A DNA stretch of 64,000 bases from NCBI GenBank assembly GCA_937873155.1, contig CALMVZ010000002.1, forward strand, positions 62,001 through 126,000, in the 5' to 3' direction. This document shows positions 5,507-38,884 of the stretch, piece after piece. This DNA comes from an uncultured Bacteroidota bacterium. GTDB lineage: Bacteria; Bacteroidota; Bacteroidia; B-17B0; Aurantibacillaceae. Under the pieces are notes generated by a model that had not been told where the DNA came from, did not search any database, and saw only the letters and a list, made by a program, of their open reading frames with translations. The position numbers and the translations under genes were made by a program. Within the stretch, counting starts at the first letter, position 1. Every line of letters begins with the position of its first letter.

Positions 5507-8122
5507 ATGAAAATACTTGATATAAGAGCCCTCCGCGGTCCAAATTATTGGTCGAACTACCGCAAAAAATTAATCGTAATGAAATTGGACCTGGAAGAAA
5601 TGGAAGAATCTCCAACCAATAAAATTCCGGGGTTTTTAGACCGGCTCAAAAAAACGTTACCATCCCTACAAACCCACCGTTGTTCAAAAGATAACGAAGG
5701 CGGTTTTTTTGAACGAGTTGAAGAAGGCACATGGATGGGCCACGTTGTTGAACATATTGCTCTTGAAATACAGACTTTAGCAGGTATGGAAGTTGGTTTC
5801 GGCCGTACCCGCGGCACAGGAACAAAAGGAGTTTACAATGTTGTGTTCTCCTACATGGAAGAAAAAGTAGGAAAATATGCTGCGAAAGCCTCAGTTGATA
5901 TTGCCGAGGCTGTAATTAAAGGGAATGACTACGATCTTGAGAATGATATTAAACAAATGCGACAGATCCGCGAGCGCGAGCGTTTTGGTCCGAGTACCGG
6001 ATCTATTGTTGATGAAGCAGTAGCCCGTGATATTCCGTATATCCGTTTAAATTCACAATCATTGGTGCAATTAGGTTATGGAAAGAACCAGGTGCGTTTC
6101 CGTGCTACAATGACCGATAGGACAAGTTCGATTGCTGTAGACCTTGCAGGGAATAAAGATGAAACTAAAAAGATCCTGCAGGACGCAGCTATTCCTGTTG
6201 CTAAAGGTTCTTGCATCTCATCCGAAAGTGAAATTGAAGAAGCTATTGAGAACATCGGATTTCCATTGGTATTTAAACCACTGGATGGTAATCATGGGAA
6301 AGGCGCATCCATTAATGTAAAAACTTTAGAAGAAGCAAAAGCTGCTTTTCTACATGCAAAACAATATTCGAGAAGCATCATTGTAGAGAAATTCATTACC
6401 GGTTACGATTTTCGTGTGCTTGTTATCAACCATCGTTTTATTGCAGCAGCTTTACGTGAACCTGCTCATGTAAAGGGTGACGGGAAATCTACTATTCAAC
6501 AATTGATAGATAAAGAAAATAAAGATCCGCGTAGAGGTTACGGTCATGAAAATGTACTGACTGAAATTACAGTTGACCGGGAAACACACGACCAATTAGC
6601 AAAATCAAATTATACTTTAGAAACTGTTCTGAAAAAAGATGAGCTCTGTTATTTGAAAGGTACTGCTAATTTAAGTACCGGCGGAACATCAACTGACGTT
6701 ACTGATATCATGCATCCGACAAATATTTTCATTTGTGAAAGGATCTCACGTGTTATCGGATTGGATATTTGCGGGATCGACATTATGGCAAAGAATTTAA
6801 GTGAGCCATTAGAAATCACCGGAGGTGTTGTGCTGGAAGTAAATGCTGCTCCCGGATTCCGAATGCATCTTGCTCCTGCAAAAGGATTACCGCGTAACGT
6901 AGCGGCTCCTGTTCTGGATATGTTATATCCTCCCGGAAAAAGCTGTCGTATTCCTATCATTGCAATTACCGGAACTAACGGTAAAACAACAACAACACGT
7001 TTGATCGCTCACATTGTAAAAAATAATGGTTATAGAGTTGGTTTCACTACTTCAGACGGGATCTATGTACAAAATTCAATGCTGACAAAAGGCGATACAA
7101 CAGGACCTTTAAGCGCTGAATTCATTTTAAAGGATCCGACAGTTGAGTTTGCAGTTCTTGAAACAGCGCGCGGAGGAATTTTACGTTCAGGTTTAGGTTT
7201 CGGCAGATGTGACGTTGCAGTTGTAACAAATATCCAGGAAGATCATATGGGTCTTGGTGATATTCATACTTTGAAAGACATGGCTTCTGTAAAAGGCGTT
7301 GTAGCTTCAAGTGTAAAACGTGATGGTTACGCCGTTCTGAATGCTGATAATGAATATTGCGTTGGATTAAGTAAAATCGTGGATTGTAATGTGGCTTATT
7401 TCAGCCTGGAAGAAAATAGTCCGGTTGTGAGAGAGCATTGCAGAAAAGGAGGGATTGCCGCTATTTACGAAAACGGGTTCATCACCATTAAAAAAGGCGA
7501 TTGGAAATTCAGGGTTGGAAAAGTAACAACAATTCCTTTGACATTCGGCGGCCGCGTAACATTTATGATCAGTAATGTGCTTGCAGCTACTTTAGCAAGT
7601 TATGTTTACGGATTTACCATTGAAGATATAAAATCAAGCCTTGAATCATTTATTCCTTCTGCAACGCAAACACCGGGACGGATGAACATTTTTGATTTCA
7701 AAGAACATAAAGTACTCATTGATTTCGCTCACAACCCGGATGGATTCAGGGGGATAAAGGAGTTTTTATCTACTGTTGACTCTTCATTCAAGATCGGCAT
7801 CATCACCGGTACAGGCGACAGGCGTGATGAAGACATTAGGGAAATGGGAAAGATCTCAGCAGAAATGTTCGACCATATTATCATCAGGCAGGATAAATTT
7901 TTACGCGGCCGTGAAGCACAGGAAATAGTGGATCTGTTGGTAGAAGGTATCAAACAATCAGACCCGAATAAATCTTACGAATATATTCCTAAAGAAATTG
8001 AAGCTTTGAAACATGCCTTGGATATGGCTAAGCCGGGATCATTTATTACCGCATTGAGCGATGTGATCGATAATGCAATAACAGTGGTACAATCTTATCT
8101 GGATAAAGAAAGGGGATTGTGA
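5507..8122 (+). CDS. cphA: cyanophycin synthetase
   Basis: 871 aa, the family length. A CphA-specific N-terminal domain (1-160) is followed by an ATP-grasp domain (about 210-475; VFKPLDGNHGKG at 255-266, VVLEVNAAPGFRMH at 441-454) and a Mur-ligase-like domain (about 480-871) with the P-loop GTNGKTTTT at 489-497. The ATP-grasp half adds Asp to the backbone and the Mur half adds Arg to its side chain, giving multi-L-arginyl-poly-L-aspartate. No frameshift or missing core motif was seen. It is divergent from cphB. This is a CphA1-type enzyme, since both active halves look complete. Confidence 0.95.
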   Translation: MKILDIRALRGPNYWSNYRKKLIVMKLDLEEMEESPTNKIPGFLDRLKKTLPSLQTHRCSKDNEGGFFERVEEGTWMGHVVEHIALEIQTLAGMEVGFGRTRGTGTKGVYNVVFSYMEEKVGKYAAKASVDIAEAVIKGNDYDLENDIKQMRQIRERERFGPSTGSIVDEAVARDIPYIRLNSQSLVQLGYGKNQVRFRATMTDRTSSIAVDLAGNKDETKKILQDAAIPVAKGSCISSESEIEEAIENIGFPLVFKPLDGNHGKGASINVKTLEEAKAAFLHAKQYSRSIIVEKFITGYDFRVLVINHRFIAAALREPAHVKGDGKSTIQQLIDKENKDPRRGYGHENVLTEITVDRETHDQLAKSNYTLETVLKKDELCYLKGTANLSTGGTSTDVTDIMHPTNIFICERISRVIGLDICGIDIMAKNLSEPLEITGGVVLEVNAAPGFRMHLAPAKGLPRNVAAPVLDMLYPPGKSCRIPIIAITGTNGKTTTTRLIAHIVKNNGYRVGFTTSDGIYVQNSMLTKGDTTGPLSAEFILKDPTVEFAVLETARGGILRSGLGFGRCDVAVVTNIQEDHMGLGDIHTLKDMASVKGVVASSVKRDGYAVLNADNEYCVGLSKIVDCNVAYFSLEENSPVVREHCRKGGIAAIYENGFITIKKGDWKFRVGKVTTIPLTFGGRVTFMISNVLAATLASYVYGFTIEDIKSSLESFIPSATQTPGRMNIFDFKEHKVLIDFAHNPDGFRGIKEFLSTVDSSFKIGIITGTGDRRDEDIREMGKISAEMFDHIIIRQDKFLRGREAQEIVDLLVEGIKQSDPNKSYEYIPKEIEALKHALDMAKPGSFITALSDVIDNAITVVQSYLDKERGL

Positions 8123-26100: not shown

Positions 26101-27450
26101 ATGCTTAAACAAAACAAACTTCCCATCGGCAAACAAATCGCTTATGCCTTTGGCATGATGGGATGGAGTATCATGATCAACCTCATCAGTGTTATTTTAA
26201 TTTACCTTTATTTACCTCCTGTAAACAGCGGACTTCCAAATTTAATAACCCAATCTGTTATTTTAGGTGCTTTTAATGTGATCGCAATTATTACAGCAAG
26301 CGGAAGGTTTGTTGACGCTATCTACGATCCTTTTATTGCGCAATTCAGCGACAGAAGTAAAAATCCCAAAGGTAGACGGATCCCGTTAATGAAGCTGGCA
26401 ATTGTTCCCTCATTTATATTCTGCTTCCTTATTTTTTATCCTTTGTACGAAAGAGAATGTACGGGCAATATTATTTGGCTTACTATAATGTTGATCGGAT
26501 TTTATATTTCTTCAACAACCTACATCATTCCTTACAATGCGCTTTTACCTGAGCTGGCTCCTACTTCTGAAGATAAAGTCAGGCTTTCTACCTGGCAATC
26601 GGTTGGTTTTGTATTTGGGGTTGGTATTGCTTCGAATGCTTTCAATTTAACGGATGAGTTGTTACCCGCACTTAATATGGAATCGCGGATCGCTGCCCTT
26701 CAACTATCTGTTCTTATCATGAGTTTATTTGCCGCAGGATGCATGTTGTTACCCGTTCTGGCAATCAATGAAAAAAAATATAGTGATGCCAAACCGAGTC
26801 ATGTCCCGATGAAAGCAGCTTTAAAACAAACGTTGACCAACAAGAATTTTTTATTATTTGTAGTAGCTGATTTCTCGTATTACATTTCAGTTACTATCAT
26901 CACATCCGGACTAATGTATTTTGTAACCGTCTTGTTGCGATTGGATGAACGTATAGGAAACAAATTAATGATCACAATGGTATTGATCTCATTCGTATTT
27001 TATCCCATCATCAATTATTTAGTAAAGCGGACCGGGAAAAAAATAGTTGTATTCATTTCACTTCTTCTTCTGTCGGTTACTTTTTTGGGTATCTATTTTT
27101 TAGGAAAAGCCCAGTTCGATCCGGAAGCCCAGATCTACGCCTTAATTGCACTCGCAGCAATTCCTCTCGCCTCTTTAAATATTTTACCTAATGCGATCCT
27201 TGCTGAGATCATTGAAAAGGACAGTAAAGATACAGGTGAAAATAAAGAAGCTATTTATTTTGCTGTGCGTTATTTCTTCGTGAAGATCGCCCAAACATTA
27301 GGCATTGCTTTGTTTGCTATGATGCTGATCTATGGTAAAGACATTGGAAATGACCTTGGAATACGCTTGAATGGAATTCTTGGGTTTTCTTTATGTTTAC
27401 TGGCAGCTTTGATCTTTACGAGATTCAAAGAGAAAAAACCTAACGCCTGA
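26101..27450 (+). CDS. MFS transporter, glycoside-pentoside-hexuronide (MelB-like) family
   Basis: 449 aa with about twelve hydrophobic segments. GRFVDAIYDPFIAQFSDRSK near residue 65 is the GPH-family motif (Asp residues that bind the coupling cation). The family includes sugar symporters, but also members beside lipid-modification genes. It converges with and overlaps by 11 bases the CFA-like gene that ends the lipid cluster, so a role in moving a lipid or lysolipid is possible; that link is inference only. Substrate unknown. Confidence 0.82.
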   Translation: MLKQNKLPIGKQIAYAFGMMGWSIMINLISVILIYLYLPPVNSGLPNLITQSVILGAFNVIAIITASGRFVDAIYDPFIAQFSDRSKNPKGRRIPLMKLAIVPSFIFCFLIFYPLYERECTGNIIWLTIMLIGFYISSTTYIIPYNALLPELAPTSEDKVRLSTWQSVGFVFGVGIASNAFNLTDELLPALNMESRIAALQLSVLIMSLFAAGCMLLPVLAINEKKYSDAKPSHVPMKAALKQTLTNKNFLLFVVADFSYYISVTIITSGLMYFVTVLLRLDERIGNKLMITMVLISFVFYPIINYLVKRTGKKIVVFISLLLLSVTFLGIYFLGKAQFDPEAQIYALIALAAIPLASLNILPNAILAEIIEKDSKDTGENKEAIYFAVRYFFVKIAQTLGIALFAMMLIYGKDIGNDLGIRLNGILGFSLCLLAALIFTRFKEKKPNA

Positions 27451-28678
27451 TATTATTTGGCCTTGCGTAAACCATTTGCATCACGTTTATGTTACGCATA
27501 TCAAACGCGGCTTCGCAATAACAGAAATAATAATTCCATTTGCGGATAAAAGTATCATCAAAGCCTAATTTTTTAATTTCAGAGATGTTCTTATTGAATT
27601 GCTCTCTCCACAAATTTAAAGTGCGGGCGTAATCTAATCCAAGATCTTTCAGATCAACTAAAGTAAGATCGCCTGTATTATTGATAGCGCGGTTGATCGC
27701 GGCTACAGATGGTAACAACGAACCGGGAAAAATATGTTTCTGGATCCAATCCACACCGGTACGTAAACTTTCAAAACGCGAATCAGGACATGTAATGACT
27801 TGTAATGCTAAAACGCCATCTTTCTTTAACAAATCATGACATTTTTTAAAATACGCGTCATAGAACTTTGCACCAACAGCTTCTAACATTTCAACTGAAA
27901 CGATCTTATCGAATTGTCCGGATAAATAACGGTAATCCTGTAAAATGATATTTACTTTATCAGCTAGTCCTTCCTTCTCTACTCTTTCTTTAGCCAGTTT
28001 ACATTGCTCTTCGGAGATAGTTACACTAGTCACATAACAACCGTAATTCTTCGCCATGTGAATTGCATTTCCTCCCCAGCCACTACCGATTTCTAAAACA
28101 TGATCGTCGGGTCTTAAATTCATTTGTTTACACAGACGGTCGTATTTTGCTAATTGGGCTTCCTGTAAACTGATTCCGTCCTTATAAAAATAAGCGCCGG
28201 AATAGGTCATAGTTGAATCCAGGAACGAAGCAAAAAAATCATTATTCAGATCGTAATGCGCAGCAATATTTTTCTTCGAACCTTTTAAAGTGTTCTCTCG
28301 CTTTGAGTGATAAATTGTATTGAATACCCTAAGAATATTTAAAACAACCGATTGAGCAGAACTTCCGGAAACAGAAGGTGCATTCTCAACATTCAATAAG
28401 AACCACCTGATCACGTTCGTGATATTATCAGTATCCCAATCCCCATCTACATAAGCTTCACCAAAACCTATGTCGCCGTAAAGAACACAACGTTTAAAGA
28501 AGTAAGGATCTTTTATTTCTGCATTAGCAACAATTCCGCCTTCACCATTTCCTAAGGTAACTTGTTCGCCGCTTGGTAAAGTTAAATTAAGGGTGCCCAA
28601 GTTCATTTTGGAAAGCATACCTAAAACGGTTCTCTCGTAAAAACCTCTTTTAGTATTTATTGCTATAGCGCTGGACAT
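27440..28678 (-). CDS. cyclopropane-fatty-acid synthase-like SAM methyltransferase with altered active site
   Basis: 412 aa: an N-terminal acyl-binding-like region (about 1-135) and a class I methyltransferase domain with LEIGSGWGG at 195-203. Compared from memory with E. coli Cfa, the YSCAYW cysteine (C139) is Gly161 (YSGAYF) and the HTIG histidine (H266) is Gln293 (ALQVIT), while Glu266 and Tyr350 match E239 and Y317. Loss of two bicarbonate-site residues suggests a CFA-family methyl transfer other than plain cyclopropanation. It is the last gene of the lipid cluster, 43 bases after DUF1365, a partner often seen with this subgroup. Confidence 0.85.
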   Translation of the reverse strand: MSSAIAINTKRGFYERTVLGMLSKMNLGTLNLTLPSGEQVTLGNGEGGIVANAEIKDPYFFKRCVLYGDIGFGEAYVDGDWDTDNITNVIRWFLLNVENAPSVSGSSAQSVVLNILRVFNTIYHSKRENTLKGSKKNIAAHYDLNNDFFASFLDSTMTYSGAYFYKDGISLQEAQLAKYDRLCKQMNLRPDDHVLEIGSGWGGNAIHMAKNYGCYVTSVTISEEQCKLAKERVEKEGLADKVNIILQDYRYLSGQFDKIVSVEMLEAVGAKFYDAYFKKCHDLLKKDGVLALQVITCPDSRFESLRTGVDWIQKHIFPGSLLPSVAAINRAINNTGDLTLVDLKDLGLDYARTLNLWREQFNKNISEIKKLGFDDTFIRKWNYYFCYCEAAFDMRNINVMQMVYARPNNIRR

Positions 28679-28721
28679 ACTCTTACAAATATATACGAAT
28701 TAGATACAAGTTCCTTACAAA

Positions 28722-29513
28722 TTATTCACGGTATTTATTGAATACTTCCCGCTGTAAATCAGGATGTTCCGTCTTTTTATAATAGCGGATCTTCTTCATC
28801 CATAACCTCAGCGCATTATAGTGGATAAGGGTAATAATTTGAAGGGTGATGAATGGAAAACGAATACTATACCAAAACAAATTCCGGTTATTGATCTGTT
28901 TTTTAGTGCCGCTTAAAGTACTTATGAAAAAACGTTCTCCGTCTTTATAATCATCGATACGAATATTCAGTTTTTCTCCCGGAATTATAAGATTGAAGTC
29001 AAAATTCGTATCGTGTTCGATAAAAGGCGACACATAAAAATATTTTGTTGTATTTAAATGAAACGTATTACCATTCAACCTGTCTTTCCCTAAAAAGAAC
29101 GGTTTCATTTCACGGAAAGTATTGCTGATCTCGGCGACACAACATAATGGTTCATTCATCTCATCGAAACAATAATAAAAGGACACCGGATTGAAATTAT
29201 ATCCCAACACATTTAAATTAGTAAGGAGCATGATTCTTGAAGCCTTTGTAACTCCGTTTTGCCTGAGATAATCCAGGATATGCTGTTTTGTGCTTTTTGT
29301 TTTATCAGGATCGTTGATCGGTAATTGTAAGTGCTCTTTGTCTTTGAAACTGAAGAAATTGAATTTATTGATACTAAGAAGAAATAGTTTTTTATTTAGT
29401 ACCTCTAATTCATCAAGATCGATATAGAACATAAAGACATTGTAATGAAAGGCGTGCTTTTTAGGAGCTAACCTGTTGTGCATTACTTTGGCTTTATAGA
29501 GACAAGAATTCAT
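28722..29513 (-). CDS. DUF1365 domain protein
   Basis: 263 aa. It begins with CLYKAKVMHNRLAPKKHAFHYNVFMFYIDLDEL, trimmed here to describe: an early KVMHNRL and a HxFxYxVFMFYIDLDEL block, then NVLGYNFNPVSFYYCFD near residue 110. These are DUF1365 marks. The family has no proven reaction but travels with CFA-like methyltransferases and flavin oxidoreductases in many bacteria, and in some is controlled by oxidative-stress sigma factors. Cytoplasmic or membrane-associated; no signal peptide. Its place between the two such genes here supports a shared lipid pathway. Confidence 0.88.
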   Translation of the reverse strand: MNSCLYKAKVMHNRLAPKKHAFHYNVFMFYIDLDELEVLNKKLFLLSINKFNFFSFKDKEHLQLPINDPDKTKSTKQHILDYLRQNGVTKASRIMLLTNLNVLGYNFNPVSFYYCFDEMNEPLCCVAEISNTFREMKPFFLGKDRLNGNTFHLNTTKYFYVSPFIEHDTNFDFNLIIPGEKLNIRIDDYKDGERFFISTLSGTKKQINNRNLFWYSIRFPFITLQIITLIHYNALRLWMKKIRYYKKTEHPDLQREVFNKYRE

Positions 29514-29624
29514 TTTCGTATTACACGAATTTACTAATCTTTATGTAGAAACATGTAACAAGCATCATAAGTTCTCAATGTAAATTGCGCAGGAATCTTA
29601 ACTGACACTTGTACTACTGATCTT

Positions 29625-29912
29625 ATGAAACATGCTCCTAAAATTACCCCTCCGGAAAAATCCGGAAAACTGACTTTTCGCTCCATTGTACTTGGAATTC
29701 TTACCGGGGTTTCTGTCGAAATTTTATTCATTCTCGGAGCTTTTCTTTTAGGTAAATACGAAAGCGAGGCAGCATACTTATACAAAGAGAAATTATGGTG
29801 GTTAGCAACCGGGATCTTGTCCTTTTTTCTTGGCCGGTACGTCACTTCAAAAGTAGCCGGAGTTAAGTTAAAAAGTATCTTTAGATGGGAAGATGAAAAA
29901 GACAGATCATAA
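29625..29912 (+). CDS. small two-helix membrane protein, unknown function
   Basis: 95 aa on the strand opposite to the surrounding lipid genes. It has a Lys-rich N-terminus, two hydrophobic segments (about 21-43 and 60-80) and a charged tail (RWEDEKDRS). The hydrophobicity pattern and codon use look genuine, whereas the opposite-strand frame across 29534-30004 has neither. Its last 6 bases overlap the 3' end of the flavin oxidoreductase gene. No family was recognised. Confidence 0.6.
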   Translation: MKHAPKITPPEKSGKLTFRSIVLGILTGVSVEILFILGAFLLGKYESEAAYLYKEKLWWLATGILSFFLGRYVTSKVAGVKLKSIFRWEDEKDRS

Positions 29913-31151
29913 CTGTTTGCATAATTCCACCGAACTTTTATATGCATCCTCATGGAAGCCGTATTTAAAATAGCTTCCGCAATAATAAAGCTGGCCGGTT
30001 TCATTTAGTTTATGTAATTCGTTTTGTGCTTGAATGGCAGCGACATCAAATAAAGGATGATGGTATTCAATTTCTTTGATGATCTTATTTTTAGCAACAG
30101 TTCCTTCCAAGGAATTAATGGAGACAAAATAATTTTTCTTCTTCGAAACACCTTGTAAGCTATTCATCCAATAGATCGTTGTGGGAATTAATTTTCCGTT
30201 TCTCTCCTCTATTCTATAATTCCAGCTGCTCCAGGTTGCTTTTGTTTTTGGCATGATGGATTCATCGGTATGAACTGTTGCGATATTCTTTTCGTATTTG
30301 AATGGAGTTAATAAACGACTTTCATCCGGAGTTGGGTTTTCCAGCAATTTCAAAGTCTCATCCGCATGAGAAGCAAAGATCACTTTATCAAATTCGTGTG
30401 ATTTCCCGTTCTTAGTGGTAACAATTACTTTATTTTCTTCGCGTTTAACTTTTATTGCTCCATTATTGACCTGGATCTTGTCCTTAAAAGGTTTAATTAA
30501 GATTTCGCGATAAGCTTGCGATCCTTTTTCCAACGTCCACCATTGATGTTGGGTATTTAATCCTAAAAACCCGTGATTTTTAAAGAACCGGATTAAAGTA
30601 ACAACGGGGAAATCCAGCATCTTTTCCATTGGTGTACTCCAAACTGCCGAACTCATAGGAATTAAATATTTCCAAAGCATATCTTCTCCAAAACCAAATT
30701 CTTTAATGTATTTGCCTAAAGAATAATCTGCATATTTCGGATCGTCCATTATTTCCACGCTGATCTTATTGAAGCGTGATATCTGTTTCAGCATTTTAAT
30801 GTACTTTATACTGAAAATATTTTTCCGCTGTGCGAACAAACCGTTTATTCCCGAACCGCAATACTCTAAATTAGTCGGAACATGTTGCACGCTAAACGAC
30901 ATATCCGTTTTTTTGATCGGCGCTTTTATTTCGTTAAACAGATTGCAAAGATTCGGATAGGTTTCGAAATTGAATACCATAAAACCCGTATCCATATAAA
31001 CCGGCTGCCCCTCTTCATCAACAGCTACCGTATTGGTATGTCCACCGATGTAATTGTCTTTCTCGAAAATAGTAAGGTCGTATTTTTCATGGAGATGATG
31101 CGCACAACCCATTCCTGCAATTCCGGTTCCTATGATTCCTAATTTGAGCAT
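29907..31151 (-). CDS. FAD-dependent amine-oxidase-like oxidoreductase of the DUF1365/CFA cluster
   Basis: 414 aa. The dinucleotide-binding motif GTGIAG is at 8-13, followed by IFEKDNYIGGHTNTV, typical of the NAD(P)/FAD-binding amine oxidase superfamily. Members beside DUF1365 and CFA-like genes include desaturase-like flavoproteins (UfaD in furan fatty acid synthesis) and the reductases of 10-methyl fatty acid synthesis. Here it most likely oxidises or reduces a modified acyl chain; that is inferred from context. It is separated from the next gene upstream by a CACAGAG repeat. Confidence 0.85.
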   Translation of the reverse strand: MLKLGIIGTGIAGMGCAHHLHEKYDLTIFEKDNYIGGHTNTVAVDEEGQPVYMDTGFMVFNFETYPNLCNLFNEIKAPIKKTDMSFSVQHVPTNLEYCGSGINGLFAQRKNIFSIKYIKMLKQISRFNKISVEIMDDPKYADYSLGKYIKEFGFGEDMLWKYLIPMSSAVWSTPMEKMLDFPVVTLIRFFKNHGFLGLNTQHQWWTLEKGSQAYREILIKPFKDKIQVNNGAIKVKREENKVIVTTKNGKSHEFDKVIFASHADETLKLLENPTPDESRLLTPFKYEKNIATVHTDESIMPKTKATWSSWNYRIEERNGKLIPTTIYWMNSLQGVSKKKNYFVSINSLEGTVAKNKIIKEIEYHHPLFDVAAIQAQNELHKLNETGQLYYCGSYFKYGFHEDAYKSSVELCKQL

Positions 31152-31162
31152 TTTGTTATTTC

Positions 31163-31235
31163 AACACAGAGGTCTCAGAGGTTTTTGAGTTCACAGAGAC
31201 TCTACATTACTCTATCACTCTGTATCTCCGTGTTT
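31163..31235. repeat. CACAGAG-type inverted repeat
   Basis: The left arm AACACAGAGGTCTCAGAG pairs imperfectly with the right arm CTCTGTATCTCCGTGTT (31219-31235); the middle holds TCACAGAGACTC. This is a common type of dispersed intergenic repeat. It occupies the 92-bp gap between two genes of the lipid cluster. Confidence 0.55.
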
Positions 31236-31243
31236 GGTTAAGA

Positions 31244-32257
31244 TCATTTCTTTTCAAATAAATAATGTACTACCATCCATTCATTTCCTTTATTATATCC
31301 CCATAATTCGGCGCAAGCCATGTAAAAGATTCTCCAATACACCCACCACTTCGTAGCATTCTCTTTTCCGTAAGTTTTCTCGAATAATGGAATGATCTCT
31401 GTTTTGTGTTTATCCATATTCTGCAACCAGGCTTCTGAAGTTTTACTGTAATGCATTCCATTAACGGTCCATTGATTTACGATCTTCAGATCATCATTAA
31501 AATATGAGAACAGATCGTTACTTGGCATGATCCCTCCCGTAAAGAAATATTTGCTCATCCAATCCGTATCATCTATCACTTCGAATTTGTAAGCGTAAAT
31601 TTTATGGGTGAACACATGCACGAACATTTTTCCCTCATCTTTTAACAGAGAAGAAATTTTATTGAAGAGTAATTTATAGTTTCTTAAATGTTCGAACATT
31701 TCTACAGAGACAACTCTGTCGAATTTTTTATCGAGGTTGAAATTATTGATGTCGATGGTGAGAACAGTCAGATTATTGATTCCTCTTAATTTCGCTTGCT
31801 CATCAATATATATTTTCTGGGTTCTTGAATTCGAAACAACGGTAAAACTGCTTTTCGGAAATCTGGCCGCCATGAACAACGACAAAGAACCCCATCCGCA
31901 GCCTAATTCTAAAACTTCTTGCCCGTTTTGCAATTCGGCCCGTTCGCAGGTAATATCGAGCATATCTTTTTCTGAAGTATCAATATCTGTTACCCCATCC
32001 TTCCAGAACCCACTGCTGTACTTTAAATGTTTCCCTAAACAGTATTGATAGAATTGAGTCGGGACTTCGTAATGTTGTTCGTTGGCCGCTTTTGTTTCTA
32101 TGGCGATAGGAGAATTTTTTAATTCTTCGATGAGTTTCGGCAAATTCTGTTCTTGAGTTTCTTCATCCCGTAAACGTTGCTTTAATAAACGACGAATGCC
32201 TATTCTGATAAGAAAATCCGGAATTAGATCTTTTTCGAGAAGTTTATCGTAAAACAT
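31244..32257 (-). CDS. CFA-synthase/coclaurine N-methyltransferase-like SAM methyltransferase
   Basis: 337 aa. The SAM motif LELGCGWG is at 116-123, with VEMFEHL (187-191) and MFVHVFTHK (211-219, His214) following. The Cys of CFA synthases is Ser82 in LKYSSGFW, and the end FYMACAELWGYNKGNEWMVV resembles coclaurine N-methyltransferases of plants, a branch of the CFA superfamily. It is only about 25% alike by eye to the other CFA-like gene, so the two likely act on different substrates. It is 3 bases from the DUF1295 gene, indicating translational coupling. Confidence 0.85.
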   Translation of the reverse strand: MFYDKLLEKDLIPDFLIRIGIRRLLKQRLRDEETQEQNLPKLIEELKNSPIAIETKAANEQHYEVPTQFYQYCLGKHLKYSSGFWKDGVTDIDTSEKDMLDITCERAELQNGQEVLELGCGWGSLSLFMAARFPKSSFTVVSNSRTQKIYIDEQAKLRGINNLTVLTIDINNFNLDKKFDRVVSVEMFEHLRNYKLLFNKISSLLKDEGKMFVHVFTHKIYAYKFEVIDDTDWMSKYFFTGGIMPSNDLFSYFNDDLKIVNQWTVNGMHYSKTSEAWLQNMDKHKTEIIPLFEKTYGKENATKWWVYWRIFYMACAELWGYNKGNEWMVVHYLFEKK

Positions 32258-32260
32258 AAA

Positions 32261-33040
32261 TTATTTTTTCTTGAACCATGGTACGAATGCACTTGTTGTT
32301 CTTTGATAATCGACATAAAGCTGTCCTTTACTGCGAACGGCTTGTTCTTCTGTCATAGGAATACCGGTCACTTTAAAAATTAAATAACCAATAGAAAGCG
32401 GACAAATAACAGAGATCCATCCGTAAGGACTTGGTAATGCAAAGATCAACACCGAAACCCAGATCATGAACTGAAAAAAATAATTCGGGTGGCGTGAATA
32501 ATTCCATAATCCGTTCTCACAAACTTTTCCTTTATTAGTCGGGTTCTTTTTAAATTGAGCTAATTGAAAATCAGAAAGACCTTCACCGATAATACTAATT
32601 AACCACATCCCTGCACCAATGTATTCAATAATGCTAATTTCAGGATTTGGATTTAAAGCGATCACAAAGAAAGGAATGGATAACATCACATTACTGAAAG
32701 CCTGCATCTGGAAAAAGAAAAAGAATTTGGTATCATTCCACTCTAAGCGTAATTGCTTGTAGCGGCCTTCCTCTTCCTTTATATGTCCGCCGACACGGAT
32801 TCCCAAATATGTAGTTAACCGCAAAGCCCATAAAGCTGCTAATCCGCAAACGATATTTTTTCTTTCCTCGAAGCCATCTGCCAATATCCAAATAATAACT
32901 GCGATCACTAAAAAATTGAATGCCCAGAAAATATCAACGATACCATTATTCTTTATAGCAAGCGCCCATAAATAAATGATCACCATAATAGCGGCAACCG
33001 CTGCCCAAGAAATTAAAGGAATAGATAAATAGTTTGACAT
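32261..33040 (-). CDS. DUF1295 family membrane protein (steroid reductase / isoprenylcysteine methyltransferase-like)
   Basis: 259 aa with about six hydrophobic segments. NNGIVDIFWAFNF near residue 31 and NGLWNYSRHPNYFFQFMIW near residue 190 are DUF1295 marks; the RHPNYF box resembles the cofactor-binding region of 5-alpha-reductases and ICMT-type methyltransferases. It sits in the inner membrane. Just downstream is the CNMT-like methyltransferase, a pairing common in Bacteroidota and proteobacteria. A reductase or methyl-transfer role on a lipid is inferred. Confidence 0.87.
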   Translation of the reverse strand: MSNYLSIPLISWAAVAAIMVIIYLWALAIKNNGIVDIFWAFNFLVIAVIIWILADGFEERKNIVCGLAALWALRLTTYLGIRVGGHIKEEEGRYKQLRLEWNDTKFFFFFQMQAFSNVMLSIPFFVIALNPNPEISIIEYIGAGMWLISIIGEGLSDFQLAQFKKNPTNKGKVCENGLWNYSRHPNYFFQFMIWVSVLIFALPSPYGWISVICPLSIGYLIFKVTGIPMTEEQAVRSKGQLYVDYQRTTSAFVPWFKKK

Positions 33041-33097
33041 ATACCTACGAATTACAAATTAATACGAATATACTAATCTGCGTGTAAAATCAGAATT

Positions 33098-33826
33098 TTA
33101 AGCTTTATTCAATTTAATGATCCGCATCCAACCCAGCACTTTAATTACAAAATAGCTGGGATCCAATTCAAATTTCCGTTGTGCGAAATTCACATCATTT
33201 GGTTTTTTGTGATGGTTGTTCTGAAAGAACTCTCCTAACATTATAATATCAATGGGTAATGTATTCTTGCTATGATCTTTATTATCATAATTACTGTAAC
33301 CGTATTTATGTCCGCACCAGTTCACAATTGCACCATGAATTGGCCCCATAAAGAAATGTATCGGCAATAAAGCGAACATCCACCAGGCTGTCGCAAATTT
33401 TACATAGAATAAAATATATGCCGCAGCAAATAACAAACGTACTACCCACATATCTGTTATCTTATCCATTATTCTCCACTCCGGGTAACCGCCCCTGAAT
33501 TTTTCTTCCGGCTCAACATTATATTTAGCGTAATTCAGATAGATATCTTTAGTGTGCATGGTCATTTGCCATATATCTTTAAAGAACATCGGCGAATGCG
33601 GATCTTTTTCGGTATCGCTGTATTCATGATGCATACGGTGAAGTATAGCATAGGCGCGCGGGTTTAAAAAAGAAGAACCTTGGGTAATAAAAGTAAAAAG
33701 GTAAAAGAAACGTTCCCATGGTTTATTCATGGTAAACATTTTATGTGCTCCGTAACGGTGCAGGAAAAAAGTCTGACAAAATAAAGAAAGGAACCAGTGT
33801 GCCAGGAAAAATATAAGGATGTACAT
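33098..33826 (-). CDS. membrane fatty acid (acyl-CoA type) desaturase
   Basis: 242 aa with about four membrane segments. The three histidine boxes of the di-iron site are present: HRYGAH at 23-28, HRMHH at 63-67 and a late NNHHKKP. It introduces a double bond into acyl chains, using reduced electron donors and O2. At 242 aa it is shorter than typical delta-9 desaturases, but the boxes are intact. As the first gene of the minus-strand lipid cluster it could supply the unsaturated substrate that the CFA-like methyltransferases modify. Confidence 0.9.
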
Positions 33827-33921
33827 ATTAAGTGCCGTGTATTAGTAAGCTGTAAATATAGGCGAATAAAGAGCGAATCCCTTACATCGTTTCGTGTAGT
33901 TGTGATTATTTATGGTTTGTT

Positions 33922-33956
33922 AAAAAGGAAAAGCCCCCGCTAACAACAGGGGCTTT
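33922..33956 (-). terminator. minus-strand intrinsic terminator in the recA upstream gap
   Basis: AAAGCCCC (33930-33937) and GGGGCTTT (33949-33956) form an exact 8-bp stem. On the minus strand it is followed by CTTTTCCTTTTT-like T-rich sequence (forward 33922-33929), whereas on the plus strand ACAC follows. It therefore ends a minus-strand transcript, yet it lies before the desaturase start, so that transcript must arise from 33957-34270. Confidence 0.6.
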
Positions 33957-34105
33957 ACACAAACACGAACTAAAATAACCTAAGAGTACTAACTGACTAT
34001 ATTAAAGGTACATCAAAAAGAACCTTAAACCCAGTCTATTTAGCCTGATAGGCAAGCCATTGAGCCAAATTGGGGTAATACCGAGTAACTGAAGGTCCGG
34101 AAACC
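33925..34105 (-). ncRNA. candidate structured small RNA ending at the minus-strand terminator
   Basis: The 445-bp gap before recA has no gene. On the minus strand a TTTTTG-N15-TAGGTTTC promoter-like pair (close to TAnnTTTG) lies near forward 34110-34140, and the terminator at 33922-33956 would close a transcript of roughly 175 bases. Inside are possible hairpins: GCCTATCAGGC, and TTAAGGT pairing with ACCTTTAA. Size and position would suit a 6S-like or other regulatory RNA, but no known family was recognised. The call depends on the terminator and is otherwise inference. Confidence 0.25.
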
Positions 34106-34149
34106 TAAGTTTTGAACAATTTCAAAAATGCTACAATTTATAGCAAGGC

Positions 34150-34175
34150 TTTGCTACGTTTAGCATATACCTTTG
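34150..34175 (+). promoter_or_regulatory. candidate recA promoter
   Basis: An exact TACCTTTG (TAnnTTTG) lies at 34168-34175, with TTTG at 34150-34153. The 14-base spacer is shorter than usual, so the -33 part is doubtful. The recA ATG is 97 bases past the -7 box, which would give a long AT-rich leader. A TTTTGA/TCAAAA inverted pair lies upstream near 34111-34130. Confidence 0.35.
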
Positions 34176-34271
34176 TTTATAATTAAGCGCCAAAGTTTAA
34201 AAATGCAGAGGCAATTAAGGTGTAAAAATTGTAATTTAATAATATAGTATAAACTCAAAAAACAAAAAATC

Positions 34272-35477: not shown

Positions 35478-36605
35478 ATGGCTAAAAAAGATGCCAAAAT
35501 AAACTTACTTGATCACTCCGAAGCGAAAGTAGGATTGTACGGTAGATATTTGTCTATTTTTTTAAATATACTGTCAAGAAGCCCTATTAACACCATTCAC
35601 TTGTTTGATCTTTTCTGTGGCGAAGGTGTTTTCGAAGACGGTGGCAAAGGAAGTCCAATTGTCGCCTTGGAAACGATTAGAAATCATTTTTTTAATAACA
35701 ATAAAACATGTCCAAATATTAATATAGTTTTTAATGATACTGGCTTCTCTGAAATTGAACCTACTAAATTAAAAACCGACCGAGTAAAAGAAAATGCTTC
35801 TAAAATATTTAAGCCGAAAAATGTTAATGTTGGATACGTTAATATTGATTATTCTGTATTGATTGAAAAAGTTATAAATAGAACTGATAAATTAAGATCA
35901 AATGAAAGAGCTTTAGTATTTATAGACCCTTGGGGATATAAAGAGATTGACCCAAATGACATTAAAAAACTCCTTTCTAATGGGAAAACGGAAGTAATAC
36001 TTTTCCTACCCATTTATTTCATGGCCAGATTTGTTGAAAAATCAAGGGATGATGAATTTAAAGGCGGAAAAGCTATTAGAAAATTTATTGAATTACTCTT
36101 TGGATCAATAGATAATTATCCAAAATCAAAAAGCCAAAAGGAATTTATTTACAAAATTCAGGAACAATTTAAGGTATTTCTTAATTTAAAATATGTTGAT
36201 ACCTTTAAAATCGAAAGAGAAAGCAATAACTGGTTCTGTCTTTTTTTCTTTACCAATAATAAAAAGGGATTTCAAAAAATGATTGAAGCAAAATGGTTGA
36301 TAGATAAAAAGCATGGGACAGAGTTTAAAATTGGAGAAGATCTTAAAATGGATCTTTTTGACGAAATTGAAGTATCAAATTATACCGAAAAGGTCTCGAG
36401 TTTTTTAAAAAACAATTTAGCTGCAACAAACATAGATTTGATGAATTTTGGATTAGAAAATAATTTCCTACCACCACATACAAAAAAAGTCCTAGATGAA
36501 ATAAAATTAAATCACGGAATTGATATTATATCGTTAGATGGGTTACCAGCTAGAAGTTATTATTTAGGAGATGAAAAAAGGCTCGTTAATATAAAAATAA
36601 GATAA
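35478..36605 (+). CDS. tcmP: three-Cys-motif partner protein TcmP
   Basis: 375 aa. DLFCGEG at 44-50 resembles motif I of class I methyltransferases, and FIDPWGYKEID around 148-158 resembles their catalytic DPxx motif, as in TcmP proteins; a C-terminal region (about 290-370) looks like a winged helix. TcmP genes are named for their constant pairing with DUF5131 'three-Cys-motif' proteins and are spread by transfer; the reaction is unknown. The TAA is followed at once by the partner's ATG. The coding sequence is more AT-rich than recA, with many AAA/AAT/ATT codons, consistent with transfer. Confidence 0.85.
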   Translation: MAKKDAKINLLDHSEAKVGLYGRYLSIFLNILSRSPINTIHLFDLFCGEGVFEDGGKGSPIVALETIRNHFFNNNKTCPNINIVFNDTGFSEIEPTKLKTDRVKENASKIFKPKNVNVGYVNIDYSVLIEKVINRTDKLRSNERALVFIDPWGYKEIDPNDIKKLLSNGKTEVILFLPIYFMARFVEKSRDDEFKGGKAIRKFIELLFGSIDNYPKSKSQKEFIYKIQEQFKVFLNLKYVDTFKIERESNNWFCLFFFTNNKKGFQKMIEAKWLIDKKHGTEFKIGEDLKMDLFDEIEVSNYTEKVSSFLKNNLAATNIDLMNFGLENNFLPPHTKKVLDEIKLNHGIDIISLDGLPARSYYLGDEKRLVNIKIR

Positions 36606-37334
36606 ATGGCTCAATCAAGTATAGAATGGACTGAAATGACATGGAACCCTACAACCGGTTGTACTAAAATCACCGCGGGTTGTAAATTCTGCTACGCAGA
36701 GGTTATGTCAAAGAGGTTACAAGCCATGGGTATTGAAAAATACAAAGATGGCTTTAAGAAAGTAAGAATTCATGAAGACCAACTTAATATTCCATATACA
36801 TGGAAAAAATCAAAGGTTGTTTTTGTAAACTCAATGAGTGATTTATTTCACAAAGACGTTCCTTTAGAGTTTATTAAAAAGGTATTTCATGTAATGAATG
36901 ATAACCCAAATCATGTCTTTCAGGTTTTAACAAAACGATCTGAGAGATTGTTAGAATTACATAAAGAACTAAAATGGACACATAACATATGGATGGGTGT
37001 CTCTGTTGAAAACGAAAAAGTAAAAGATAGAATTGATTTTCTTCGGAAAACGAATGCAAAAGTGAAATTTTTGTCTCTTGAGCCACTTATCGGCCCTCTT
37101 CCAAAATTAAATCTTAAAAAAATTGATTGGGTTATTGTTGGGGGCGAGAGCGGCCATAAACCAAGACCTATGGACCCGGATTGGGTATTAGACATTCAAG
37201 AACAATGTGCAAAAACTGATACTGCATTCTTTTTTAAACAATGGGGTGGCAGAAATAAGAAAAAAAATGGCCGAATTTTGAATGGCCGAACTTATGACGA
37301 AATGCCCGAAATCGAGCAGCAATTAAGTGTCTGA
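36606..37334 (+). CDS. DUF5131 (phage Gp37/Gp68) three-Cys radical-SAM-like protein
   Basis: 242 aa. [20 protein letters not shown] carries Cys19, Cys26 and Cys29 (C-x6-C-x2-C), the three cysteines that in this family are thought to hold an iron-sulfur cluster in a radical-SAM-like barrel. [38 protein letters not shown] and FFFKQWGG are family blocks. It abuts tcmP with no gap, so the two are co-expressed. The family is common on phages and plasmids. Nucleic-acid modification is a reasonable guess for the pair, not established. Confidence 0.88.
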
Positions 37335-37871: not shown

Positions 37872-37872
37872 T

Positions 37873-38335
37873 TTAATCCCTACGGGATTAAAAAAGTTTG
37901 GGGTTAGCGCAGTTACCGTTATTTAGTCCCTACGGGACAATGGGGAGATGATTAGAGTTAGATGGAATCCTGTAAAGATTTTATATCGGTAGCATATTGG
38001 AGGAAAACAAGTAAACCCTAAGGGTTTTATGTCTATAACAAAATCCTATAACCCCACAGACAAATCCCATAGGGATTTTATATCGGTAAAAGATCCTAAA
38101 AAAGACAACCAAAATCCCGTAGGAATTTAATGTTGGTAAAATAAAAATACAACAGACAAAAAAATCCCGTAGGGATTTAACATCAGTAAAAAGCGAACAA
38201 AAAAGATTTAAAATCCCGTAGGAATTTAATGTTGGTAACAGAAAACAATAATAGACAAATATCCCGTAGGGATTTAATATCGGTAAAATAAAAATACAAC
38301 AGACAAAAAAATCCCATAGGGATTTCACATTAATG
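37873..38335. repeat. array of about ten REP-like palindromic units
   Basis: Fills the 487-bp gap between the HRDC gene and the Y1 transposase. Typical unit: AAATCCCGTAGGGATTTAA followed by a tail near TATCGGTAAAA. Units are at about 37873, 37924 (AGTCCCtacGGGAC), 37966 (decayed), 38012 (AACCCtaaGGGTT), 38062, 38112, 38161, 38210, 38257 and 38308. The palindrome centre varies (GTA, CAT, CTA, TAA) and three units carry a GGAAT variant that breaks the stem. The units after 38060 are direct repeats, all with the tail on the same side. Spacing is 38-51 bp and spacers are partly alike (AAAATACAACAGAC twice). Confidence 0.8.
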
Positions 38336-38358
38336 AATAATTAAAATAAAAAAAGGCC

Positions 38359-38884
38359 ATGGCAAACACTTATACCCAAATCCATTTACAAATTGTTTTT
38401 GTTGTGAAGTATCGTGATAGAGTGATCCATAGTTCATGGAAACAAAGATTATACAAATACATAACAGGAATTGTTCAAAACAACGGCCACAAGTTGATCA
38501 CAATTAATGGCATGCCAGACCATATACATATGTTAATTGGAATGCGACCCACTCAATCTCTTTCCGAATTAATGCAGGATGTTAAGAGATGTTCATCCAA
38601 ATGGATCAATGAAAGCAAATTAATTCAGGGAAAGTTTGCCTGGCAGGAAGGTTATGGGGCGTTTTCTTATTCAAAATCAGAAGGGAAAGTTTGCCTGGCA
38701 GGAAGGTTATGGGACGTTTTCTTATTCAAAATCAGACTTGCCCATTGTAATTGATTATATCGAAAACCAGGAAGAGCATCATAAAACAACATCCTTCAAA
38801 GAAGAATATGTCAAACTTCTAAATAGCTTTGAAGTTGTATTCGAAGAAAAATACCTTTTTGAAACTGAAAAAGAATTAGCTTAA
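38359..38884 (+). pseudogene. IS200-like Y1 (HUH) transposase, possibly REP-associated, frameshifted
   Basis: The frame from ATG 38359 encodes the Y1 transposase core: YTQIHLQIVFVVKYR, the HUH motif in DHIHM (His55, His57) and WQEGYGAFSYS with probable catalytic Tyr99. It leaves frame after a 55-bp tandem duplication and stops at 38754. The true C-terminus continues in another frame from inside the second copy to TAA 38884 (DLPIVIDYIENQEEHHK...). Removing one copy restores a 156-aa protein, the usual size for these transposases. No TnpB lies nearby, and a REP-like array is directly upstream. Decay looks recent since the rest is undamaged. Confidence 0.85.
38628..38737 (+). repeat. 55-bp tandem duplication inside the transposase gene
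   Basis: Two copies in tandem, 38628-38682 and 38683-38737, both starting GGGAAAGTTTGCCTGGCAGG. They differ at one inner base (GGGGC versus GGGAC) and at the last base. 55 is not a multiple of 3, so the second copy shifts the frame. The segment contains the WQEGYG catalytic-tyrosine motif. Confidence 0.92.

Follow-up and report, generated by a model that had tools for sequence, protein, structure and literature searches.

Which acyl chain is made by a row of six lipid-modification genes carried by an uncultured Bacteroidota bacterium? The genes lie on the minus strand of a 64-kb stretch of its contig CALMVZ010000002.1 (positions 62,001 to 126,000), here called the window, and they occupy window positions 27440-33826 as six co-oriented open reading frames (ORFs) in the order, from 33826 down to 27440, desaturase, DUF1295, FufM, UfaD, UfaO and UfaM. 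An earlier note on this DNA had proposed that the cluster makes an unusual chain, methyl-branched, cyclopropane or furan, from a desaturated precursor. The analysis supports this proposal and, as far as sequence can tell, points to the furan, because UfaM, UfaD and UfaO are linked and the second enzyme resembling cyclopropane fatty acid (CFA) synthases is FufM-like. We consider it likely that the operon makes dimethyl furan fatty acids, which would be a modification of membrane lipids.

Six linked genes and a predicted furan pathway

All six ORFs are open, according to the ORF list and the Pfam matches of the window (Table 1), and they are separated in operon order by 57, 3, 92, 393 and 43 bp, the interval of 393 bp being that between UfaD and UfaO. 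The earlier note had described six minus-strand genes over 6.4 kb, with a desaturase first, a CFA-like enzyme last and one small gene of the opposite strand interrupting the row; the six ORFs are found at this span with Pfam matches that agree, and the small gene is the ORF of 95 amino acids (aa) in the UfaD-UfaO gap. The extent given to the cluster, 27440-33826, was right for the six genes but left outside a conserved convergent gene encoding an MFS_2 transporter, and of the two CFA-family methyltransferases that had been named, both do match the CMAS family but the second groups with FufM and not with cyclopropane synthases.

The enzymatic steps are known from two photosynthetic proteobacteria. 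In Rhodobacter sphaeroides, according to the available excerpts of PMC7380195, UfaM methylates cis-vaccenate and UfaD converts the product into a methyl diene, from which UfaO, of the DUF1365 family, builds the furan ring using O2; the Ufa set of Rhodopseudomonas palustris carries out the same chemistry and FufM puts a second methyl on the ring. If the enzymes of the cluster act like these characterised relatives, as we infer by analogy, the cluster desaturase would produce a mono-unsaturated acyl chain feeding UfaM, and UfaM would transfer the methyl of S-adenosylmethionine (SAM) to one alkene carbon, the product being a methyl-branched trans alkene rather than a cyclopropane; with its bicarbonate-binding histidine replaced, the proton would be lost from the acyl chain and not from the added methyl. 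UfaD would then turn the methyl alkene into a conjugated methyl diene, UfaO would add an O2-derived oxygen and close the furan ring, FufM would methylate the free ring carbon, and DUF1295 would act together with FufM or on its product. The resulting furan lipid would probably be a trap of singlet oxygen and other oxidants.

Furan fatty acids occur in some plants, fish and microbes, as stated in the same excerpts (PMC7380195). Among the matching titles and abstract openings listed from the open-access literature we found no description of a Bacteroidota furan cluster of this kind; surprising here are the Bacteroidota host, the tight link of FufM and the recurrent presence of DUF1295 and MFS_2. 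If the prediction is true, non-phototrophic-looking Bacteroidota are to be added to the organisms that produce dimethyl furan fatty acids, and the known furan steps are packed in one operon that is suited to heterologous tests.

Table 1. Features of the putative furan locus (window positions)
Feature	Position	Strand	Match or property
Fatty acid desaturase	33098-33826	-	PF00487 FA_desaturase 1e-15
DUF1295 membrane protein	32261-33040	-	PF06966 1e-63, Steroid_dh 2e-8
FufM, predicted SAM-dependent furan-ring methylase, 337 aa	31244-32257	-	CMAS 3e-40
UfaD, predicted flavin adenine dinucleotide (FAD)-dependent fatty acyl desaturase	29907-31151	-	Amino_oxidase 5e-19
UfaO, DUF1365, predicted O2-dependent furan-ring former	28722-29513	-	PF07103 1e-70
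UfaM, predicted SAM-dependent fatty acyl methylase, 412 aa	27440-28678	-	CMAS 3e-88
Orphan ORF, 95 aa, in UfaD-UfaO gap	29625-29912	+	no family match
MFS_2 (GPH-type) transporter, convergent with UfaM	26101-27450	+	PF13347 3e-44
Terminator-like hairpin, about 104 nt ahead of desaturase start	33930-33956	-	12-pair stem and T tract

The two methyltransferases and their partner enzymes

Four Rhodopseudomonas genomes were used for comparison (R. pseudopalustris DSM 123, R. pentothenatexigens, R. infernalis and Rhodopseudomonas sp. AAP120), and identities were computed for two of them. With respect to the corresponding proteins of these two, identity is 40.7 and 41.5% for UfaM of the window, 34.0 and 33.3% for UfaD, 30.7 and 30.8% for UfaO, and 43.6 and 44.5%, over 97% of the protein, for FufM, whose identity to a Rhodopseudomonas UfaM is 24%. 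The UfaO residues H12, R14, G104, N131, T132, K157 and VSPF161-164 are conserved in 97% or more of 44 rows, and the UfaD glycines G8, G10 and G13 to the same degree in 43 rows; the closest PDB match of UfaD is the amine oxidase LkcE (1.5e-24). A scan of viral contigs gave no relatives of UfaO, and single-sequence structure models were discarded for their low mean predicted local distance difference test scores (42.7 for UfaO, 48.9 for DUF1295). CMAS matches in the own genome comprise two of near full length, both in this cluster, and three partial ones that are also above the cut-off.

The residues of UfaM speak against cyclopropanation. In the CFA synthase of Escherichia coli, the available excerpts of PMC11387697 report that Glu239, His266 and Tyr317 bind the bicarbonate which accepts the proton. 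We located these ligands in an alignment whose row numbering is one ahead of the E. coli numbering, and which includes 41 UfaM rows (the fragments of L012 and L051 were dropped and L053 has no UfaM), 40 FufM rows (the gene is missing from L013 and sits on other contigs in L065, L067 and L074) and 27 CFA comparators, namely 21 Bacteroidota loci out of many more weak matches, 5 PDB chains and one third CMAS protein of Rhodopseudomonas. The position of the bicarbonate histidine holds Gln in all 41 UfaM rows, whereas it holds His in 26/27 comparators and in 40/40 FufM rows, so that of the Glu/His/Tyr ligands expected of a cyclopropane synthase UfaM lacks the His. A cysteine near the bicarbonate site, present in 27/27 comparators, is replaced in 40/41 UfaM and 36/40 FufM rows, and the GxxEH motif becomes ExxEA in 41/41 UfaM rows and ExxEH in 40/40 FufM rows.

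In a tree of 110 CMAS-family rows, all 41 UfaM rows group together with a support of 99, also within a wider branch (support 87) that includes long-branched enzymes of Lactobacillus, Aquifex and mycobacteria; a branch of support 100 has on one of its sides the 40 FufM rows together with two plant alkaloid N-methyltransferases; and the 21 Bacteroidota CFA-like proteins cluster with E. coli Cfa (support 84). UfaM and FufM thus each form a group of their own rather than joining the known synthases. The cyclopropane option of the earlier note is disfavoured because UfaM has no bicarbonate histidine and falls outside the group formed by the Bacteroidota CFA proteins sampled, and FufM sits in the tree with other FufM proteins and N-methyltransferases.

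By tree, identity and nearest structures, the second "CFA" of the cluster is FufM-like and appears as an ortholog of Rhodopseudomonas FufM. Its best PDB match is coclaurine N-methyltransferase at 1.5e-80, versus 5e-29 for E. coli CFA, and the plant benzylisoquinoline N-methyltransferases (coclaurine N-methyltransferase, 6gkv; pavine N-methyltransferase, 5kn4), which stand on the same side of the branch with support 100, are the nearest solved relatives of FufM. These plant enzymes methylate the nitrogen of alkaloids, unlike the ring-carbon role proposed for FufM. Among the bacterial proteins sampled, FufM rather than CFA appears to be their closest relative.

Occurrence in Bacteroidota and rival explanations

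DUF1365 was found in 9/296 Bacteroidota genomes, under 7 family labels, and a strong match to FufM, of 57-100% identity and 451 bits or more, in exactly the same nine; the best of the remaining genomes reaches 114 bits. Among 120 nearer genomes DUF1365 is present in 27, all of which have FufM, and 27 of the 29 genomes with FufM have DUF1365; G298 (82% complete) and G303 (99% complete) do not. Both tallies count the window's own genome, and the relatives are not independent of each other. Eight named genomes were also considered: DUF1365 and FufM are both present in the four Rhodopseudomonas, and the other four lack DUF1365 and give CMAS matches to FufM of at most 32% identity.

In the survey of 35 Bacteroidota DUF1365 loci, the window among them, UfaO and UfaM are adjacent in 34, UfaD and UfaO are linked in 34, and FufM and UfaD in 32. 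The gene-neighbour search across Bacteroidota that the earlier note had suggested therefore reveals a recurring order; the note would have been contradicted by neighbours differing in all close relatives, and two of seven same-genus genomes (G296 and G297) share the order. Of the other five, G298 has part of the cluster on a short contig and four lack DUF1365, among them two of 99-100% completeness. Additional genes found in relatives and absent from the window, as seen in a Pfam scan of examples, encode a membrane-anchored alpha/beta hydrolase relative between FufM and UfaD (14 loci) and a DUF1475-type protein (9 loci). The cluster was also seen to split into two modules, desaturase-DUF1295-FufM-UfaD and UfaO-UfaM, in G303 (L231) and in G318, where the modules lie on separate contigs (L065 and L232).

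Several observations weigh against a dimethyl furan product. The identity of UfaO to its Rhodopseudomonas counterparts is a mere 31%, and the tested R. palustris strain CGA009 was absent from the comparison, orthology being inferred through its congeners. G303, in spite of its 99% completeness, carries the desaturase-DUF1295-FufM-UfaD module without detectable DUF1365, and locus L053 (genome G372) has UfaO without UfaM. The desaturase lies within the locus in only 16/35 cases, and the own genome holds four other FA_desaturase matches. FufM retains all three bicarbonate ligands (40/40), thus its residues are compatible with cyclopropanation, and for FufM it is therefore the tree, not the residues, that decides; this tree is a quick one, with supports from the Shimodaira-Hasegawa-like approximate likelihood ratio test only, the program flagged long branches and an odd composition of proteobacterial rows, and the FufM rows minus the plant rows have a support of 75.

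The bicarbonate ligands of FufM, together with the membership of both methyltransferases in the CMAS family, would suit a locus that makes cyclopropane or methyl-branched fatty acids of the 10-methyl type, with a different role for DUF1365. We regard this as very improbable, since UfaM lacks the histidine in every row and the nearby cysteine in all rows but one, the DUF1365 gene, which adjoins UfaM in 34/35 loci, is of the same family as the ring-forming UfaO, and UfaD matches Amino_oxidase, whereas TmsA is an oxidoreductase of another type. It is likewise improbable, to a lesser degree, that only monomethyl furan fatty acids are made and that FufM and DUF1295 serve a different substrate, such as an amine lipid: the N-methyltransferases closest to FufM among solved structures and the separability of the modules in G318 and G303 would fit such a role, but FufM is present in 9/9 UfaO-bearing genomes of the phylum and in 27/27 UfaO-bearing relatives, and it is 44% identical to the Rhodopseudomonas protein that corresponds to the furan-ring methylase of R. 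palustris. Finally, the patchy distribution (9/296 phylum genomes), the lack of the set in the near-complete congeners G301 and G302 and the orphan ORF inside the operon could be those of a relic or of a non-functional transfer; with six open frames, conserved residues retained and an order maintained across genomes of several family labels, this appears extremely unlikely.

Partner genes, regulation and known systems

Besides the four enzymes to which the synthesis of dimethyl furan fatty acids is ascribed, the locus includes recurrent partners. DUF1295 precedes FufM on the same strand in 28/35 loci, at 300 bp or less in 27 and with one gene between in L057, it is adjacent to FufM on another contig in three further genomes, and it is directly upstream of FufM also in Rhodopseudomonas, Shinella, Burkholderia, Acinetobacter and Cupriavidus. 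As an obligatory part of the set DUF1295 was rejected: close relatives (at least 47% identity) are present in 6/9 UfaO-bearing genomes and in 1/287 without UfaO (G093), G062, G120 and G156 have relatives of 31-37% identity only, and in G099 the close relative is on another contig than the UfaO locus. DUF1295 may be considered a recurrent partner of FufM and a possible missing component of the pathway. The family is steroid-5-alpha-reductase-like, that is, it resembles enone reductases, and because of this resemblance DUF1295 may, speculatively, reduce the enedione that arises from the trapping of singlet oxygen by a furan lipid; alternatively, it may ready the acyl chain for FufM. In R. palustris, RPA0923 has been deleted alone and together with fufM (available excerpts of PMC7380195), and RPA0923 is probably the DUF1295 gene because DUF1295 directly precedes FufM in the four Rhodopseudomonas genomes.

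The desaturase histidines H23/H28, H63/H66/H67 and H205/H206 are invariant in 17 rows. The stop of MFS_2 overlaps that of UfaM by 11 bp, and an MFS_2 relative (at least 352 bits) is convergent with UfaM in 22/35 Bacteroidota loci, at most 200 bp away in 18; none of the 14 proteobacterial stretches compared holds an MFS_2 match at E<=1e-5, and MFS_2, for which a role as lysolipid carrier was considered, has no PDB match at E<=0.001. A more far-reaching proposal, which we put forward tentatively and consider rather unlikely as a whole, is that DUF1295 is a dedicated, undescribed enzyme of the dimethyl furan branch, that with the desaturase and MFS_2 it belongs to a self-contained, ChrR-independent module for making, using and repairing a lipid antioxidant, and that the plant alkaloid N-methyltransferases share ancestry with FufM.

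The orphan ORF of the UfaD-UfaO gap gave no match in Pfam, NCBIfam and PADLOC scans, is present in a single copy in the own genome and has no counterpart in the loci of 34 Bacteroidota relatives; the interval measures 6 bp in the congener G297 versus 393 bp in the window. The ORF is probably an insertion that stands outside the pathway. Varied small ORFs, their kinds judged by eye, are seen in the same gap in L042, L052, L054, L058, L060, L062, L066 and L068, which suggests a spot tolerant of insertions.

The sigmaE-ChrR control of the proteobacterial systems, which is a trait of those systems rather than of the enzymes, was not found here. The ChrR domain PF12973 has no match in the own genome, and the 35 Bacteroidota loci gave no ChrR match and one sigma-like match, in L057. 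ChrR control was rejected for the own genome on this ground, other regulators not having been searched for, and regulation of the Rhodobacter type is probably absent because PF12973 has no match in the genome. The intergenic region between recA and the desaturase (33827-34271) can be aligned with that of one congener (L059), in which the minus-strand hairpin of Table 1 is kept. Leader and hairpin matched no Rfam family at threshold, and the leader folds slightly better than shuffled sequences (z -1.8); the hairpin is, speculatively, a candidate attenuator or the end of a small RNA. In two other genomes, MerR-type regulators with B12-binding domains lie beside the cluster (L047 4582-5532, L048 3862-4848), and light control may operate there.

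Other features were observed elsewhere in the window. Just after recA, at 35478-37334, a gene pair matches the PADLOC candidate defence families PDC-M30A and PDC-M30B/M41B. Repeats of the type ATCCCGTAGGGATTT recur about every 50 nt at 37872-38351, beside an ORF (38359-38884) that by eye resembles an IS200-type transposase and within which a 55-nt tandem duplication (38627-38736) coincides with a shift of the reading frame. A cyanophycin synthetase, at 5507-8122, scores 1271 bits, above the NCBIfam cut-off, in this Bacteroidota genome, and three window proteins have sorting domains of the type IX secretion system, in line with Bacteroidota. The phylum is also supported by RecA, whose four best matches among plasmid records come from Phocaeicola, Parabacteroides, Bacteroides and Prevotella.

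Among the known systems, the pathway of R. sphaeroides (ufaM RSP2144, ufaD RSP1091, ufaO RSP1090) uses the same three enzyme families, with UfaD and UfaO adjacent; its ufaM has a distant locus number and its product is monomethyl, whereas the window has one operon that includes FufM, DUF1295 and a desaturase. The R. sphaeroides furan genes are sigmaE-ChrR targets (available excerpts of PMC7380195 and PMC6852236). The dimethyl pathway of R. palustris (RPA2569-2571 and FufM RPA0924) has all four enzymes and, as judged from the four Rhodopseudomonas genomes, DUF1295 directly before FufM, but in Rhodopseudomonas the FufM-DUF1295 pair is at a locus apart from UfaD-UfaO-UfaM, and the stretches compared hold no relative of the window desaturase. 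The gene content is shared by an Acinetobacter plasmid (CP085288, L010), where desaturase, UfaD, UfaO, UfaM, DUF1295 and FufM are all present; the order there is lipocalin-desaturase-UfaD-UfaO-UfaM-DUF1295-FufM, with the lipocalin added and a desaturase of 28% identity. Plasmids of Burkholderia, Shinella and Cupriavidus carry UfaM, UfaD, UfaO, DUF1295 and FufM, the sets of the first two adjoining a sigma/anti-sigma pair, and Pseudoalteromonas has UfaD-UfaO-UfaM with ChrR, without FufM or DUF1295 in the stretch compared.

By annotation, a homologous set is also present in eukaryotes, with AtUFAMD1, AtUFAO1 and AtFUFM1/LIME1 of Arabidopsis and the CFA1, CFA2/CPLD27, DUF1365 and DUF1295 genes of Chlamydomonas; it differs in that the UfaM and UfaD regions are fused in one Arabidopsis protein (available excerpts of PMC10940516 and PMC4067076). 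Induction of these Chlamydomonas genes by singlet oxygen depends on SAK1, according to the excerpts of PMC4067076. That DUF1295 neighbours FufM in bacteria ranging from Alphaproteobacteria to Bacteroidota, and is co-induced with homologs of the pathway in Chlamydomonas, makes it a candidate for a missing component of furan fatty acid metabolism.

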